Below are positions 2,498-34,744 of a stretch of 64,000 nt of DNA, in pieces. Source of the DNA: Nitrospira japonica (GTDB lineage: Bacteria > Nitrospirota > Nitrospiria > Nitrospirales > Nitrospiraceae); the NCBI RefSeq assembly GCF_900169565.1, contig NZ_LT828648.1, positions 3,694,501-3,758,500 of the forward strand, in the 5' to 3' direction. How positions within the stretch are numbered: position 1 is the first letter of the stretch; each line of letters opens with the position of its first letter. The notes below the pieces were generated by a model. It searched no databases. It saw nothing but the letters and a program-made list of their open reading frames with translations, and was not told where the DNA came from. The position numbers and the translations under genes were made by a program.

Positions 2498-2570
2498 GAT
2501 CCCCTCCTCCTACGATGTGAACCATCTCGTACCGCTGCTCCGATAGACGGCCGCGACCAGGCTCTTGCTC

Positions 2571-3401
2571 TCATTGATGCTCCAAACCCAGCTCGGCCGA
2601 TCGCGTCGTCGCGGCCTCGACCGCCGACGTGACGGTCGCGCGAAACTGTCCCAATTCCAAGGCGTGAATACCCGCGATCGTGGTTCCCCCCGGGGACGCC
2701 ACCCGATCCTTCAACAGGGCCGGATGTTCGCCGGACGACAGGACCAGCCGCGCGGCGCCGGCCACGGTTTGCGCGGCCAGCAGTTGGGCCGTCTGGCGCG
2801 GAAGCCCCATCTTCACGCCGCCGTCCGCCAGCGCTTCTATCAAGATGTACACGTAGGCCGGTCCGCTCCCGCTCAACCCGGTGACCGCATCCAACAACCG
2901 TTCCGGCACCACCACGACGTGACCGATCGTTTCAAAGAGGGATCGGGCCGTCGCCAACTCGTCACCCGGCACTTCCTCATCGCCGGCGATGGCCGTGACG
3001 CCCTCCCGAATGGCGGACGGCGTGTTGGGCATGGCGCGGACGATCTTCTTGCGTTTCATGCCCCGCAGGTGCCGGGCGATGCGCGCGATGGGATAGCCGG
3101 CGGCGACCGAAACGATCAAAGTCTTGTCCGGCAGAATGTCGGCGATCTCGTTCAAGACCTGGTCGAGCACCTGCGGCTCCACGGCCAGCACGAGCAGGTC
3201 GGCTTCGTCGGCCGCCTCCGCGTTCTTGGCCGTGGTCGCCACGTGATATTTCCCGCTGATGACGTCGCGCGCGGCCGGATCGATGTCCGATGCGATGAGA
3301 TGCGACGGAAGAACTAGCTTCGCATGGAGCAGGCCCGCGATGAGGGATTCGGCCATATTGCCCGCACCGATGAATCCGACTCTCGCGGTATGCTGCAGCA
3401 T
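2571..3401 (-). CDS. proC: Pyrroline-5-carboxylate reductase
   Basis: A 276-residue ProC, which makes the last step of proline synthesis by reducing 1-pyrroline-5-carboxylate with NAD(P)H. The Rossmann nucleotide motif VGFIGAGNMAESLI is at the N-terminus, the segment VRAMPNTPSAIREG lies mid-protein, and the C-terminal dimerisation/substrate region contains LSGSGPAYVY and SPGGTTIAGI, all family hallmarks. The ATG at 3401 places the Rossmann motif at residue 8, as in other ProC proteins; an upstream in-frame start would add 78 atypical basic residues and overlap the divergent gene. Confidence 0.95.
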   Translation of the reverse strand: MLQHTARVGFIGAGNMAESLIAGLLHAKLVLPSHLIASDIDPAARDVISGKYHVATTAKNAEAADEADLLVLAVEPQVLDQVLNEIADILPDKTLIVSVAAGYPIARIARHLRGMKRKKIVRAMPNTPSAIREGVTAIAGDEEVPGDELATARSLFETIGHVVVVPERLLDAVTGLSGSGPAYVYILIEALADGGVKMGLPRQTAQLLAAQTVAGAARLVLSSGEHPALLKDRVASPGGTTIAGIHALELGQFRATVTSAVEAATTRSAELGLEHQ

Positions 3402-26602: not shown

Positions 26603-27037
26603 ATGAAGCTCTCAAAAAAAAGTGAGTACGGCCTGCGGGCGCTTCTCGAATTGACGCTCGCGAACGGCAGCAAGACGCTACAGCGCCACGAGATCGCCGA
26701 CCGCCAGGGCATCCCCGTCGAATTTCTCGAGCAGATTCTGTTGGCCCTCAAACGCGCGGGCCTTTTATCCAGCCGCCGAGGAGTTCGCGGCGGCTATGTC
26801 CTGATCAAGCCGCCGAGTCAGATCACGCTGGGACAGGTCATTCGGATTCTGGACGGTCCGCTCGCTCCCATCGGCTGTGTCAGCAAGACCGCCTACCAGA
26901 AATGCTCGGACTGTCCGTACGCCGAAAAGCCCCGATGTCCCGTCCAACACGTAATGGGAACGGTGCGCGACGCGATTGCCGACATCCTGGACAACTACAC
27001 GCTCGAAGATTTCTCAGCCGGACAACAAAACGGATAA
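26603..27037 (+). CDS. Rrf2-family transcriptional regulator with a Cys cluster
   Basis: A 144-residue regulator. The N-terminal winged helix reads MKLSKKSEYGLRALLELT, then RQGIPVEFLEQILLALKRAGLL and RGVRGGYVL, typical of Rrf2. Four Cys residues in the segment GCVSKTAYQKCSDCPYA ... RCPV could hold an iron-sulfur cluster, as in IscR, NsrR or RsrR, though their spacing is not exactly that of IscR. Such regulators respond to iron-sulfur status, redox or nitric oxide. The nearby nirK, Crp/Fnr and FNT genes make a nitrogen-oxide signal plausible but not shown. ATG at 26603, stop 3 bases before the next gene. Confidence 0.85.
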   Translation: MKLSKKSEYGLRALLELTLANGSKTLQRHEIADRQGIPVEFLEQILLALKRAGLLSSRRGVRGGYVLIKPPSQITLGQVIRILDGPLAPIGCVSKTAYQKCSDCPYAEKPRCPVQHVMGTVRDAIADILDNYTLEDFSAGQQNG

Positions 27038-28305: not shown

Positions 28306-28379
28306 GAGTTTTCTCTTCTTGCCGCCGCGCGCGAGTGAACGCACGAGAGCGCCCGGCGGAATTCCAGAAAGGAGTTTCA

Positions 28380-30245
28380 ATGGCCAGCCCGAGCCTCACC
28401 CCCGATCTCCTCACGACGCTCCATAATAAAGCCACGACGCTCCGGATCGAAAGCGTTCGGGCCACCAGCGAGGCCGGCAGCGGACATCCGTCGAGTTGCT
28501 GCTCCGCCGCGGACATTGTGTCCGCCCTGTTCTTCCACGTCATGCGGTACGATCCGAAGAACCCCAAGGCTCCCAACAGCGACCGATTCGTCCTGTCAAA
28601 GGGACACGCCGCTCCGCTGCTGTACGCCGCCTGGGCCGAAGCGGGTCTGTTTCCGGTCAGCGAGTTGCTCAAGCTGAGAACCCTGACGTCCGACCTCGAA
28701 GGCCATCCGACTCCCCGGCTCCCGTTCGTGGACATGGCAACCGGCTCGCTCGGCCAAGGACTTCCCGTGGGCGTCGGTATCGCGCTCGATGCGAAATTCG
28801 TCGACAAGCTGAGCCGCCGCACGTACGTGTTGATGGGGGACGGAGAATCCGTCGAAGGCTCCGTCTGGGAAGCGGCGGAAATAGCCCGCCAGTATGCCCT
28901 GGACAATCTCTGCGCCATCATTGATGTGAACCGGCTCGGACAGAGCGACCCGACGATGCTGCAACATGATATGGATGCCTATCGCGCCCGCTGGTCCGGC
29001 TTCGGATGGCACGCGATAGTGATCGACGGTCACGACCTCACGGCGATCGTCTCGGCCTTCTCGAAGGCCGCCGAGACAAAAGGGCGCCCCACGGTAATTT
29101 TGGCCAAGACCTTCAAGGGCCGGGGCATCTCCTTCATGGAGGACCATGCCAACTGGCACGGCAAGCCCATCCCGAAGGGCGAGGACATGCAAAAAGCCGT
29201 CGACGAATTGACCAAGCAATTCAAGCCAAACGGCACCCAGGTCGTCATCCCGAAGCCGGTCCCGCCCACGACTGCTCCTGCAGCCGCGGGGACCATGCCG
29301 GCTTCTCCCTATAAGATCGGTGATTCAGCCGCGACACGAGAGGCCTTCGGCGTAGCGCTCGAGGCGATCGGGGCCGTCAACCAGCAGATCGTGGCGCTCG
29401 ATGCCGATGTGAAAAATTCGACCTACACCGAAAAATTCGGCAAGAAATTTCCGAACCGATTCTTCGAAAGTTTTATTGCGGAGCAAAACATGCTCGGCGC
29501 GGCGGCCGGACTCGCCGCCTGCGGGAAAATTCCCTTCGTCGCCACCTTCGCCGCCTTTTTCACCAGAGCATACGACTTCATCCGCATGGCCGCCATCAGC
29601 GGCTCGAACATCAAACTCGTCGGCACGCACGTCGGGGTCAGCATCGGAGAAGACGGACCGTCGCAGATGGGCCTTGAGGACATCGCGATGATGGCCGCAC
29701 AACCGGGGGTGACGGTCCTCTATCCGTCGGACGCCACCAGCACCTACCGGCTCGTCGAAGCCGCCGCGGCCCATAAGGGCATGGTGTATCTGCGCGCCGG
29801 CCGGCCGAAGGCGCCCGTGATATACGGGGCGGACGAGCGGTTCCCCATCGGCGGATCGAAAGTCGTCCGCCACGGTCAATCGGACGTCCTCACCATCGTA
29901 GCGGCGGGCGTCACCCTATTTGAAGCGCTCAAAGCCCACGATCAATTGAAAGCGGCCGGGATCTCCGTACGCGTGGTCGATCTGTACAGCATCGTCCCCA
30001 TCGACCGCACCACGCTGCTGGATTGCGCTCGCTCGACGCAGGGGCGGATCCTCACCGTCGAAGACCACTACGCGCACGGCGGACTCGGCGATTCCGTGCT
30101 GGGCGCCGTCGGCGCCGAGGGCATCCGCGTGCACAAGCTCGCCGTGCGGGTCATCCCTCACAGCGGGAAACCCGAAGAGCTCGTCGATCACTTTGGCATA
30201 GGAGCGCGCTCCATTGTCGAAGCGGCAAAGCAAATCATCAAGTAA
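28380..30245 (+). CDS. tkt: Transketolase
   Basis: A 621-residue transketolase in the shorter form related to animal-type enzymes. It transfers two-carbon units in the pentose phosphate and carbon-rearrangement pathways with thiamine diphosphate. Visible parts: SEAGSGHPSSC at the N-terminus, the ThDP motif VLMGDGESVEGSVWEAAEIA through DVNRLGQSD, and in the second half EQNMLGAAAGLAACG and GEDGPSQMGLEDIAMM. AAAGGAG precedes the ATG at 28380. The Crp/Fnr gene overlaps its 3' end. Confidence 0.93.
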   Translation: MASPSLTPDLLTTLHNKATTLRIESVRATSEAGSGHPSSCCSAADIVSALFFHVMRYDPKNPKAPNSDRFVLSKGHAAPLLYAAWAEAGLFPVSELLKLRTLTSDLEGHPTPRLPFVDMATGSLGQGLPVGVGIALDAKFVDKLSRRTYVLMGDGESVEGSVWEAAEIARQYALDNLCAIIDVNRLGQSDPTMLQHDMDAYRARWSGFGWHAIVIDGHDLTAIVSAFSKAAETKGRPTVILAKTFKGRGISFMEDHANWHGKPIPKGEDMQKAVDELTKQFKPNGTQVVIPKPVPPTTAPAAAGTMPASPYKIGDSAATREAFGVALEAIGAVNQQIVALDADVKNSTYTEKFGKKFPNRFFESFIAEQNMLGAAAGLAACGKIPFVATFAAFFTRAYDFIRMAAISGSNIKLVGTHVGVSIGEDGPSQMGLEDIAMMAAQPGVTVLYPSDATSTYRLVEAAAAHKGMVYLRAGRPKAPVIYGADERFPIGGSKVVRHGQSDVLTIVAAGVTLFEALKAHDQLKAAGISVRVVDLYSIVPIDRTTLLDCARSTQGRILTVEDHYAHGGLGDSVLGAVGAEGIRVHKLAVRVIPHSGKPEELVDHFGIGARSIVEAAKQIIK

Positions 30246-30942
30246 CGGGGAGGCTGCGGCCCTTCCGCCGGGGATCGCACACATTCCCCTGCTCAATATC
30301 CTGTCCGACACGGACCGTCGTCACATGCTCGGCGAGCTGTCGGAAGCCCGCTACGGTAAAGACGATTACATCTTCCGCGAAGGCGATCCCACCGAATACT
30401 TCCACATCGTCAAAGAAGGCATCGTCAAGTGCGTCAAGTCCTCGCCCGAGGGCAAGGAATGCACGTTGAAAATGTTGATGCCAGGCGACCTGTTCTGTTG
30501 CGACGCCGCCGCCTTCGACGGAGCCTGCCATCCGGGCGCCGCACAATCGATGGGCGACGTGAGCGTCTTGAGGATGAAAAAGACCGCCTATTTCGAATTG
30601 CTTCGGCGCAGTCCCGACGCCGCGCTCGAAGTCATCAAATATCTGGGCGCCCGGCTCAACGAAGCGCAGGAGAAAGCCAAGTTGCTCGCCTTGGACCGCA
30701 CCGATCAACGCCTGGCGGCCCTGTTGCTTGACCTGGCCGAACGCAGCGGCGTTCCGGATCCGCAGGGCATCAGGCTCGCCGTGCGTCTCACCCGTCAGGA
30801 CATGGCTGACATGATCGGCACCACGACCGAAACCGCCATCCGCATCATGAGCCGGTTCAAAAAGGACCGTCTCGTGGCCGGGACGGCAAACCGGTTGATT
30901 ATCAAGGACCTCGCGCGCCTCAAGTCCTTCGCATCCGTCTAA
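30214..30942 (+). CDS. Crp/Fnr-family transcriptional regulator
   Basis: A regulator of about 242 residues. The N-terminal cyclic-nucleotide-binding-like barrel includes NILSDTDRRHML, YIFREGDPTEYFHIVKEGIVKC and LKMLMPGDLFCCDAAAF, and the C-terminal winged helix reads RLTRQDMADMIGTTTETAIRIMSRF. No Fnr-type four-Cys cluster is evident, though Cys residues occur in the barrel (GDLFCCD, GACHPG). The start is uncertain: TTG at 30214 has an AGGAG 9 bases upstream but lies inside tkt, giving a 32-base overlap; no ATG precedes the barrel. It is followed by nirK, whose promoter carries a Crp/Fnr-like palindrome. Confidence 0.85.
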   Translation: MSKRQSKSSSNGEAAALPPGIAHIPLLNILSDTDRRHMLGELSEARYGKDDYIFREGDPTEYFHIVKEGIVKCVKSSPEGKECTLKMLMPGDLFCCDAAAFDGACHPGAAQSMGDVSVLRMKKTAYFELLRRSPDAALEVIKYLGARLNEAQEKAKLLALDRTDQRLAALLLDLAERSGVPDPQGIRLAVRLTRQDMADMIGTTTETAIRIMSRFKKDRLVAGTANRLIIKDLARLKSFASV

Positions 30943-30968
30943 TTTCACGCGCCTGTCGGGTATTTTCC

Positions 30969-31017
30969 AAAAACATGACGAATATCATGTTTTTGCTTCT
31001 ACCTCCTTCTGTATCCT
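30969..31017 (+). promoter_or_regulatory. Putative Crp/Fnr operator and promoter upstream of nirK
   Basis: A perfect palindrome AAAAACATGA (30969-30978), CGAATA, TCATGTTTTT (30985-30994) contains the TGA-N6-TCA core of Crp/Fnr-family sites. A -10 box TATCCT is at 31012-31017, and no -35 match is seen. With a start near 31023, the palindrome is centred at about -41.5, the class II activator position. It might also work as a terminator for the regulator gene. Confidence 0.6.
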
Positions 31018-31079: not shown

Positions 31080-32066
31080 ATGGAGACTCGTCGTCCGCAT
31101 CCGCATCCCATCCTCGCCGGTCTTGCCGCCTGCCTGCTGATTCCGCTTTCGCTCGATGCGACTCCGGCCAACGCCAAGACGCACGAAGTTGCGATGACGG
31201 CGGTCGAGACCGATGTCGTCATCGACGGCAGCGGCGAGAAGTACGCCGCCTGGACGTTCAACGGAACGATGCCCGGGCCCGTGATTCGCGTCACGGAAGG
31301 CGATACGATCAAGTTCACGCTCACGAATCCCGCGACGAACAAATATCCGCACGCGATGGACTTTCATGCGGCCGAGATCGACTTCTTGAAGAACTATCGC
31401 GCCATCAATGCGGGCGAAACCCTCACCTATTCCTTCGTCGCCAAGAAACCGGGCGTCTTCTTCTACCACTGCGGCGCGCCGCCGATGATCCAACACGTGG
31501 CCCGCGGCATGTTCGGCGCCGTCATCGTGGATCCGAAGAATGCCAAAGCCTGGCCGAAAGCCGATCGCGAGTACGTGCTGGTGCAGTCGGAACTGTACAA
31601 GAATCCGGACGACGTGCAGGCCATGTTCGACCGGAAGTTCGAGCACGTGATCTTCAACGGGGGGGTCTTCAAATATCATCCGTTCGTCACCGGTGGCGGC
31701 AAACTCGACGCCAAGCCCGGCGAGCGGGTACGGATCTTTTTTGTGAACGCGGGTCCGAACGAATTTTCGGCCTTCCATCCGATCGGCGAGATTTGGGACA
31801 GCGTGTATGAGAGCGGCAACCCGGCCAATAAGCTGAGCGGGGTGCAAACCTACGTGGTGGGCCCGGGCGGCGCGGCCGTCTTCGACGTGGTCGTGGAATC
31901 GGCCGGCGCCTATCCGCTGGTCACACATTCTCTGACGGGCGCGCTCCGTGGAGGCATCGCCGTGCTGGTGGCATCGCCGGACGCCGGCTCGCAACCCCTG
32001 ATGCCGATGGTGCCATGGAAAGTGTTGGTGCCCCAGACTGAAATCACTCCGGTCCCGGTGCCGTAA
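31080..32066 (+). CDS. nirK: Copper-containing nitrite reductase-like two-domain multicopper oxidase
   Basis: A 328-residue exported cupredoxin protein. After the signal peptide, domain 1 shows HAMDFHAAE (type 1 His, active-site Asp, type 2 His) and YHCGAPPMIQHVARGM (type 2 His, type 1 Cys, type 1 His, type 1 Met). Domain 2 has FHPIGEIWD, with the second-shell His expected in NirK, and LVTHSL with the remaining type 2 His. All copper ligands of NirK appear present, so periplasmic reduction of nitrite to nitric oxide is likely. Other two-domain multicopper oxidases cannot be excluded. AAGGAGG precedes the ATG. The Crp/Fnr gene and its operator-like palindrome lie directly upstream. Confidence 0.8.
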   Translation: METRRPHPHPILAGLAACLLIPLSLDATPANAKTHEVAMTAVETDVVIDGSGEKYAAWTFNGTMPGPVIRVTEGDTIKFTLTNPATNKYPHAMDFHAAEIDFLKNYRAINAGETLTYSFVAKKPGVFFYHCGAPPMIQHVARGMFGAVIVDPKNAKAWPKADREYVLVQSELYKNPDDVQAMFDRKFEHVIFNGGVFKYHPFVTGGGKLDAKPGERVRIFFVNAGPNEFSAFHPIGEIWDSVYESGNPANKLSGVQTYVVGPGGAAVFDVVVESAGAYPLVTHSLTGALRGGIAVLVASPDAGSQPLMPMVPWKVLVPQTEITPVPVP

Positions 32067-33426: not shown

Positions 33427-33871
33427 GGTGCGCCTCCCACACTAGGGTTTCGGAGAGGTTGTGGCTCAACAAATATCCATACTCATGAGGCATGGTCCGT
33501 GCCTTTCCAGCAACGGAGGATACTTCAAGCAAATCGACGCGCGCTCTCCCCCCAGACGAGACGGAATTTCTCTGTCTCGTCCAACCTGTCCTCTTGGCCA
33601 TTGCGTTCAGTTCCATTCCAATTTTCCGCACACCCACCGCGAGTCACACACACGCAGGGGGTAACGACATCGAGCGATATCGCACCCACCGCACGTGTCG
33701 GCTCCACTCATGCACCGACCTCGCCAGAGCCTCGCGATTCGTCACGGTTCGCTTTTCAGGGAAAACCTACGATAGGCCGCTGAGATGCGCGAGATCTCGC
33801 TTGGCCTCAAAGTTGCTCTGCCCTTGATCGACATCCGCGCAACTCATTCTCCCATCTCGGAACGGAGCAGG
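33427..33871. other. Intergenic region, 445 bp
   Basis: The longest gap in the window, between divergent genes. No convincing gene was found: short frames on both strands lack ribosome-binding sites. An ACACACACGCAGGGG stretch lies near 33650. A TTGATCGACATC sequence at 33824-33835 only half matches an Fnr box. A GGAGCAGG ribosome-binding site for the FNT gene ends the region. Confidence 0.5.
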
Positions 33872-34744
33872 ATGATGGACTATGTGAAGCCGCACGACGT
33901 CGTGAAAGACATGGTAAGCACGGGCGCGCTCAAGCTGGATGTGCCGGCCTCGCACCTCGTAATCCGCGGAGCCCTGGCCGGAGCCTACCTTGGGATCGCA
34001 ACCAGCATGGCCGTGACGGCGGCGGTCGAGACCGGTAGTTGGCTGGTCGGATCGCTGCTGTTTCCCATCGGACTGTGCATCGCGATTTTGCTGCGGACCG
34101 AAATCATCACCGGAAGCTTCGCGCTGCTGCCCTGCGCGACAGCGGCAGGAAAGGAGAACGCCTGCGTCAGTCGGGTGCTCGTCAACTGGGGATGGGTGTT
34201 TCTGGGCAACCTGCTCGGCAGCGTCGTCTACGCGGCCATGCTGGCCATCGTGCTGACGACGGCGGGAGACGCGGGGCTCTCCGCAACCGGCACCAAGCTG
34301 ATCGCCATCGCCGAAGCCAAGACCAATTACTACGCGTCCCACGGCTCGGCCGGCATGCTGACCGTGTTCACAAAGGCGGTGCTGTGCAATTGGATGGTGA
34401 GCCTCGCGGTCGTGTTCGCGTTTGCGACGACCTCCCTGTCCGGCAAGATCTTGGCCATCTGGGGTCCGACTCTGCTCTTCTTCTCGCAAGGGTTCGAACA
34501 CGCGGTCGTCAACATGTTCGTCATTCCGGTCGGCATGTTGCTGGGCGCGCACGTCACGCTGGCGGACTGGTGGATCTGGAACCAGATCCCGGTCACGCTG
34601 GGCAACCTGGTCGGTGGAATGGTGTTTACGGGCTTGGCCATTTATTTCACCCACCGGACTCCGGCGACGGCTCCTGTCGTGCAGGCCCCGGTGGAATCCG
34701 CCACCGTGCCCGAACATGGACGCGGATATTCTCCGTCATTCTGA
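33872..34744 (+). CDS. Formate/nitrite transporter (FNT) family channel
   Basis: A 290-residue FNT protein with six membrane helices. It opens with a helical DYVKPHDVVKDMVSTGALK segment. The pore-lining parts include RGALAGAYLGIATSMAV, FPIGLCIAILLRTEIITGSFAL, and NWMVSLAVVFAFATTSLSGK, followed by FEHAVVNMFVIPVGM, the family's conserved FEH. FNT proteins move small monovalent anions or their acids (formate, nitrite, hydrosulfide). Nitrite is the natural guess in a neighbourhood with nirK. The start is one of two adjacent ATGs (33872 or 33875), with GGAGCAGG upstream. Confidence 0.85.
   Translation: MMDYVKPHDVVKDMVSTGALKLDVPASHLVIRGALAGAYLGIATSMAVTAAVETGSWLVGSLLFPIGLCIAILLRTEIITGSFALLPCATAAGKENACVSRVLVNWGWVFLGNLLGSVVYAAMLAIVLTTAGDAGLSATGTKLIAIAEAKTNYYASHGSAGMLTVFTKAVLCNWMVSLAVVFAFATTSLSGKILAIWGPTLLFFSQGFEHAVVNMFVIPVGMLLGAHVTLADWWIWNQIPVTLGNLVGGMVFTGLAIYFTHRTPATAPVVQAPVESATVPEHGRGYSPSF

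Follow-up and report, generated by a model that had tools for sequence, protein, structure and literature searches.

Crp/Fnr regulators and nirK in Nitrospira

At class II promoters, Crp/Fnr proteins occupy a position at which they touch RNA polymerase, as established for CRP and FNR, and in both of these proteins a Glu-Thr-x-x-Arg recognition helix reads the TGA of the half-site. The gene encoding NirK is found in nearly all Nitrospira, and published papers call its role in these nitrite oxidisers unknown. An Fnr encoded upstream of nirK was described in four Nitrospira genomes in 2017, and control of nirK was suggested (PMC5596200); the adjacency of regulator and nirK is thus already known. 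In 2021, NnrR control was proposed in a Nitrospira MAG by means of an imported motif, possibly with a different protein in view (PMC8510549). No earlier description of the operator, the promoter geometry or the Cys/His set presented below was found in the literature searched, and since subscription papers lay mostly outside that search, this result falls short of proof of novelty.

The nirK locus of Nitrospira japonica

The window is the whole stretch of 64,000 nucleotides analysed here, taken from the complete 4.08 Mb genome of Nitrospira japonica. Its gene order is tkt, a Crp/Fnr-type regulator and nirK, with 137 nt separating the last two. The features are as follows.

28335..30245, + strand: tkt (transketolase), conserved upstream neighbour of the regulator (NF004559, 922 bits; synteny)
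30214..30942, + strand: Crp/Fnr-type regulator gene, 242 aa from a TTG start, overlapping the end of tkt by 32 nt
30968..30995, no strand assigned: putative operator, a perfect palindrome with 11-bp arms, a 6-nt spacer and a TGA-N6-TCA core, kept in relatives
31012..31017, + strand: -10-like hexamer TATCCT, which starts 31 nt downstream of the operator centre
31080..32066, + strand: nirK, copper-containing nitrite reductase and predicted target gene (TIGR02376 and PDB relatives)

NirK scores 204 bits against TIGR02376 (E 2.6e-60), under the 296-bit equivalog cut-off. Among solved structures it matches the 4kns set best (E 7e-103; listed in PDB as Multicopper oxidase type 1), and many copper nitrite reductases come next. 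The order tkt-regulator-nirK is kept in relatives, among family loci that were gathered with a NirK query. Because the TTG start of the regulator gene overlaps the end of tkt, the regulator is probably co-transcribed and hence expressed with tkt. Two other genes of the window may be mentioned. Positions 26603-27037 encode a regulator of the Rrf2 family that contains a stretch with four Cys (CVSKTAYQKCSDCPYAEKPRC) and comes near the IscR, CymR and NsrR models, under their cut-offs, and a formate/nitrite transporter family gene (33785-34744) lies a short way downstream of nirK.

The palindrome

The putative operator reads CAAAAACATGA-CGAATA-TCATGTTTTTG, and its arms (30968-30978 and 30985-30995) are 100% complementary. 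The original prediction of a perfect palindrome before nirK, with a TGA-N6-TCA core, is correct as to both palindrome and core; its arms are 11 bp long instead of the 10 bp given, and the gap to the regulator, put at 27 bp, is 25 nt when counted from the stop codon TAA at 30940-30942. The core pattern, with up to three mismatches, is expected by chance 0.01 times per window. Perfect inverted repeats with 11-bp arms number two in the 64 kb, one of them the operator, against 0.4 expected under a first-order Markov model. The bare palindrome is thus only mildly unusual on the scale of the window, and its weight comes from position and conservation. A second element, a 9-bp perfect inverted repeat (31002-31010/31064-31072) pairing with the nirK ribosome-binding site, was dropped because its upstream arm precedes the inferred transcription start and because it is absent from the relatives listed.

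Conservation in relatives

The search for the palindrome before nirK in related genomes, which had been suggested as a check, was run in full, and the site is kept. Nitrospiraceae loci were gathered with a NirK query via two partly overlapping routes. A [C/T]ATGA-type TGA-N6-TCA palindrome lies between the regulator and nirK in 76 of the 80 regulator-linked loci (copies of the window locus included); the strict site is absent from the other four (L026, L071, L080 and L081). The consensus is AAAYATGA-N6-TCATRTTT. Across 57 distinct sequences, its arms, A-A-A-Y-ATGA and TCAT-R-TTT, are nearly invariant and the central four bases vary, which is the pattern expected for the binding site of a dimer.

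Of 175 family genomes, 88 encode a regulator ortholog (E <= 1e-40). The site, allowing at most one mismatch, occurs in 62 of the 175, and 61 of these have the regulator; put differently, it is present in 61/88 regulator-positive and 1/87 regulator-negative genomes (Fisher p 2e-24, relatedness ignored). The sole regulator-negative genome with a site, G079, shows a poor fit to the consensus and probably represents a chance match. Comparison of sequences establishes the putative operator in this way, along with its conservation and its linkage to the regulator. In a Nitrospira lenta genome (L028 and L048), the gap between regulator and nirK is 563 nt, with the operator next to the regulator and some 530 nt away from nirK.

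Promoter geometry

Counted from the palindrome centre, a TAnnnT element begins at +30 in 32 of the 44 dereplicated loci and at +31 in the other 12, and the stricter TA[T/A]NNT occurs at that place in 41 of the 44, compared with a mean of 0.9 and a maximum of 5 in 500 shuffles. If the first base of the -10 element is by convention set at -12, these positions put the operator centre at -41.5 and -42.5, respectively. The value of about -41.5 originally given is exactly the family mode; for the window it is one base off, since the -10 element there is one base further out than the mode and the centre falls at -42.5. The spacing test suggested with it came out favourably in its sequence part, a -10-like element being present at the class II distance in every one of the 44 loci. 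The predicted lack of a -35 box is likewise borne out: matches to TTGACA 16-18 nt upstream of the -10-like element score at most 3/6 in the 44 dereplicated loci, and no sigma-70 -35/-10 pair was found near the window operator. As read from sequence, the geometry of the promoter is of the class II, activator-dependent type. The distance between the operator and the nirK start ranges from 68 to more than 500 nt with the spacing to the -10-like element fixed, a regularity that is also established by comparison. Upstream of the operator centre, at 14-19 nt, a T-rich stretch is partly conserved; it may be a contact for the RNA polymerase alpha subunit.

The same position could suit a repressor. Repressors, too, can act at the -35 region, which lies under the site, and the regulator might bind there to block RNA polymerase at the -10/-35 region of nirK. 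However, no -35 box is left for a polymerase working unaided, and the constant spacing of 30/31 nt fits polymerase contact; a repressor would presumably allow more variation. Repression of nirK is accordingly considered very unlikely.

Sites beyond the regulator-nirK pair

Three genomes (G019, G021 and G027) contain a second nirK (63-66% identity) that has no adjoining regulator, and the operator is present before it with TATCCT at +30. It is absent before the second nirK copy in G051 (L111). In G070, and at the second regulator copy in G005, regulators of the same clade and the operator precede an operon of cytochrome c and cupredoxin-YVTN genes, and here too a -10-like hexamer starts at +30. 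G070 is a genome without a close nirK (best match E 1e-11). The arrangement takes the place of nirK in two genomes, at these loci.

L113, 1846-3625: regulator of the clade and operator before cytochrome c and cupredoxin-YVTN propeller genes
L145, 5643-7600: the same arrangement

An additional copy of the operator is located at 3605-3628 of L145, where a reading of the - strand has TATTGT at +30; it faces an ORF of 187 aa whose start resembles a signal peptide (2522-3085, - strand).

The operator is absent from all 14 inspected examples of nirK genes of about 70% identity that occur without this regulator. Taken together, these cases indicate that the operator goes with the target and not with the regulator gene. 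The nirK genes that, at about 70% identity, occur without this regulator (L098-L109) share different upstream elements, such as TTTGGTAGATAGT.

These sites also bear on whether the palindrome is a protein site at all. It may be that a transcription terminator or RNA hairpin ends the tkt-regulator operon at this place, as the palindrome lies just past the regulator stop and folds in RNA as an 11-bp hairpin. Against this, no terminator-like site is found on the + strand there and the T run is within the stem, second nirK copies have the palindrome as well, with no regulator gene upstream of them, and its spacing to the -10-like element is fixed at widely differing distances from the nirK start. 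On the T run, the regulator-less copies and the fixed spacing, the terminator or hairpin was rejected, and we give it almost no credence.

As a protein-binding site, the palindrome seems to have few counterparts. A scan of the window genome returned a single outstanding site; four more, at three mismatches, are near the level of the reversed-pattern control, which gave two. A wide regulon in this genome is rejected on this count. Most site-bearing family genomes contain exactly one site, and the additional sites across the family are those at two second nirK copies and at the cytochrome c/cupredoxin operon, together with an unexplained one in G005 and the likely chance match in G079. One outstanding site here and mostly single-site genomes elsewhere point to a local, nearly single-target switch.

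The regulator and its recognition helix

The regulator matches the Pfam models cNMP_binding and HTH_Crp_2 with 62.6 and 70.5 bits (cut-offs 27.5 and 27) and has a CRP-like fold, which places it in the Crp/Fnr superfamily. Its Glu206 and Arg210 align with Glu181 and Arg185 of CRP, so that the TGA-reading pair of the recognition helix is retained. At the positions of CRP Arg180 and Gly184 it has Thr and Ile, substitutions that are consistent with A, and not G or T, ahead of TGA. Of the three HTH_Crp_2 proteins in the window genome, only the nirK-linked regulator has an E-T-x-x-R helix; without it, the two paralogs are unlikely binders. With one site and a single Crp/Fnr protein whose helix matches it, the genome is best read as having a dedicated local activator.

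In a second family of the same taxonomic order, the regulator is again located near a distant nirK, mostly 35-41% identical. Regulators with a TEET[A/V]VR helix, found in this second family and in L096 and L097 of the window's own family, face TTGA[T/C]-N4-ATCAA boxes, and regulators with T/V/L/K-ETxxR face mostly ATGA-type boxes (L188 is mixed). Most sister-clade loci have a -10-like element at +29 to +32; at three loci of the sister family (L182, L183 and L187) a clear site was not seen. The TEET regulators form one branch of the tree, so the difference in helix and box may go back to a single joint change. Such a joint change supports direct recognition of the operator by the regulator. The nirK genes of L096 (box at 2305-2318) and L097, of about 70% identity, have a canonical FNR-like box, TTGACATAGATCAA, and the nearby regulator, 42% identical, retains the Cys/His set described below.

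The local switch between regulator and nirK that was originally predicted gains support from the adjacency of the genes, the site at regulator-less second copies and the joint differences in helix and site. Very likely, the palindrome serves the adjacent Crp/Fnr-type regulator as its operator in class II activation of nirK, the two forming a dedicated local switch. From these comparisons we infer that a regulator dimer would bind AAAYATGA-N6-TCATRTTT and, centred at about -41.5/-42.5 where a -35 region is missing, would contact RNA polymerase and turn nirK on, the regulator being dedicated to nirK or to very few targets. Control of the regulator probably lies in a cofactor or redox event that involves Cys73, Cys95 and Cys96, perhaps with His106; an Fe-S cluster, copper(I) and thiol/NO chemistry are candidates.

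The putative sensing pocket

All of 71 distinct orthologs, with identity down to 42%, have Cys73, Cys95, Cys96 and His106, an invariance established by alignment. These residues correspond to Val49, Gly71, Glu72 and Arg82 of E. coli CRP (CRP sequence checked against PDB), residues which we take from the CRP structure to be around the cAMP pocket; the placement of the set in a pocket rests on this alignment. An AlphaFold2 model of the regulator (mean pLDDT 85) is CRP-like. The cAMP ligands Glu72, Arg82 and Ser83 of CRP are not kept, their positions being taken by Cys96, His106 and Pro107, and the cyclic nucleotide that was among the signals first considered is therefore unlikely.

The Cys/His set marks one clade (SH-aLRT 86, under the 95 mark). 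Among 45 loci, 17 have all four residues, 15 of them near nirK and 2 beside the cupredoxin operon; the other 28, homologs from Nitrospirota at 34-43% identity, have none of the four, and nirK is near none of them. Confinement to a single clade implies one origin of the set and not many independent ones, and the clade appears to be tied to copper proteins. Since FNR presumably has a His-Pro at the same place (His109-Pro110), His106 may be structural and the three Cys the special part. Our best guess is that the set forms a cofactor or redox-thiol site, with copper, Fe-S/NO and disulfide chemistry as candidates. A more specific proposal, which we offer tentatively and hold to be possible but short of probable, is an Fe-S or copper(I) site in the former cyclic-nucleotide pocket, which would make the regulator an activator gated by copper or by NO/redox and devoted to copper proteins, namely NirK or the cupredoxin operon that replaces it. 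We know of no sensor of this type in the Crp/Fnr superfamily.

The regulator could instead be an ordinary oxygen or heme-NO switch of the FNR or NnrR/DNR type in which only the box has drifted. DNR and HcpR sense NO by means of heme. Its inner operator, ATGAY-N4-RTCAT, is one base off an FNR-type box, and earlier labels agree, namely Fnr (PMC5596200) and the NnrR homolog of the MAG (PMC8510549), if that is the same protein. However, the regulator has no Cys before residue 73, in keeping with the lack of an Fnr-type Cys cluster remarked on originally; FNR Cys122 falls on a non-Cys (aligned by eye); the invariant Cys set is missing in FNR; and the NCBIfam Fnr, FixK and CRP models score far under their cut-offs. 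The box of the window clade is also unlike the DNR, HcpR and FNR-type motifs of PMC1274295 and is not of the NnrR/DNR/HcpR operator type (TTGAT/TTGAC-N4 or TGTGA-N6). An ordinary switch with a drifted box is considered unlikely. The names Fnr and NnrR used in print suggest a sensor of oxygen or heme-NO; the oxygen-sensor label of PMC5596200 is not supported by the residues tested here.

A dedicated and conserved switch would offer a direct handle on the role of NirK, in that the condition activating the regulator would be the one under which the cell wants NirK. The Cys/His set provides a precise biochemical target, and the operator consensus allows regulons to be called in further Nitrospira genomes.

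Comparison with known systems

The Nitrospira 'Fnr' of PMC5596200 has the same gene adjacency, and no operator, geometry or Cys/His set is given for it there. The system described here resembles class II Crp/Fnr promoters, such as those of E. coli FNR and CRP and of denitrification genes controlled by DNR or FixK2/NnrR, in its TGA-N6-TCA dimer site near -41.5 with no -35 box, in the Glu and Arg retained in the recognition helix, and in having a nitrite reductase as target. It differs from them in its half-site, AAAYATGA in place of TTGAT/TTGAC or TGTGA, and in having one dedicated target where they have a regulon. With FNR it shares a His-Pro in the sensor domain and an operator that is one base off per half-site; unlike FNR, the regulator has no N-terminal Cys cluster for binding [4Fe-4S] and instead has three invariant Cys at the positions of CRP Val49, Gly71 and Glu72. 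The best match of the regulator among PDB sequences is CooA from Carboxydothermus (PDB 2fmy), with a common fold and domain order, and its Cys95 aligns with the Cys of the GDIFCTH segment of CooA. The His of that segment is a heme ligand in CooA; in the regulator, Asp97 takes its place, and the operator is also different. Judged on the residues examined, the protein is neither an FNR nor a cAMP-CRP nor a CooA. The tkt-linked regulator and nirK thus make up a predicted class II Crp/Fnr switch with an operator of its own and an unexplained sensor pocket.
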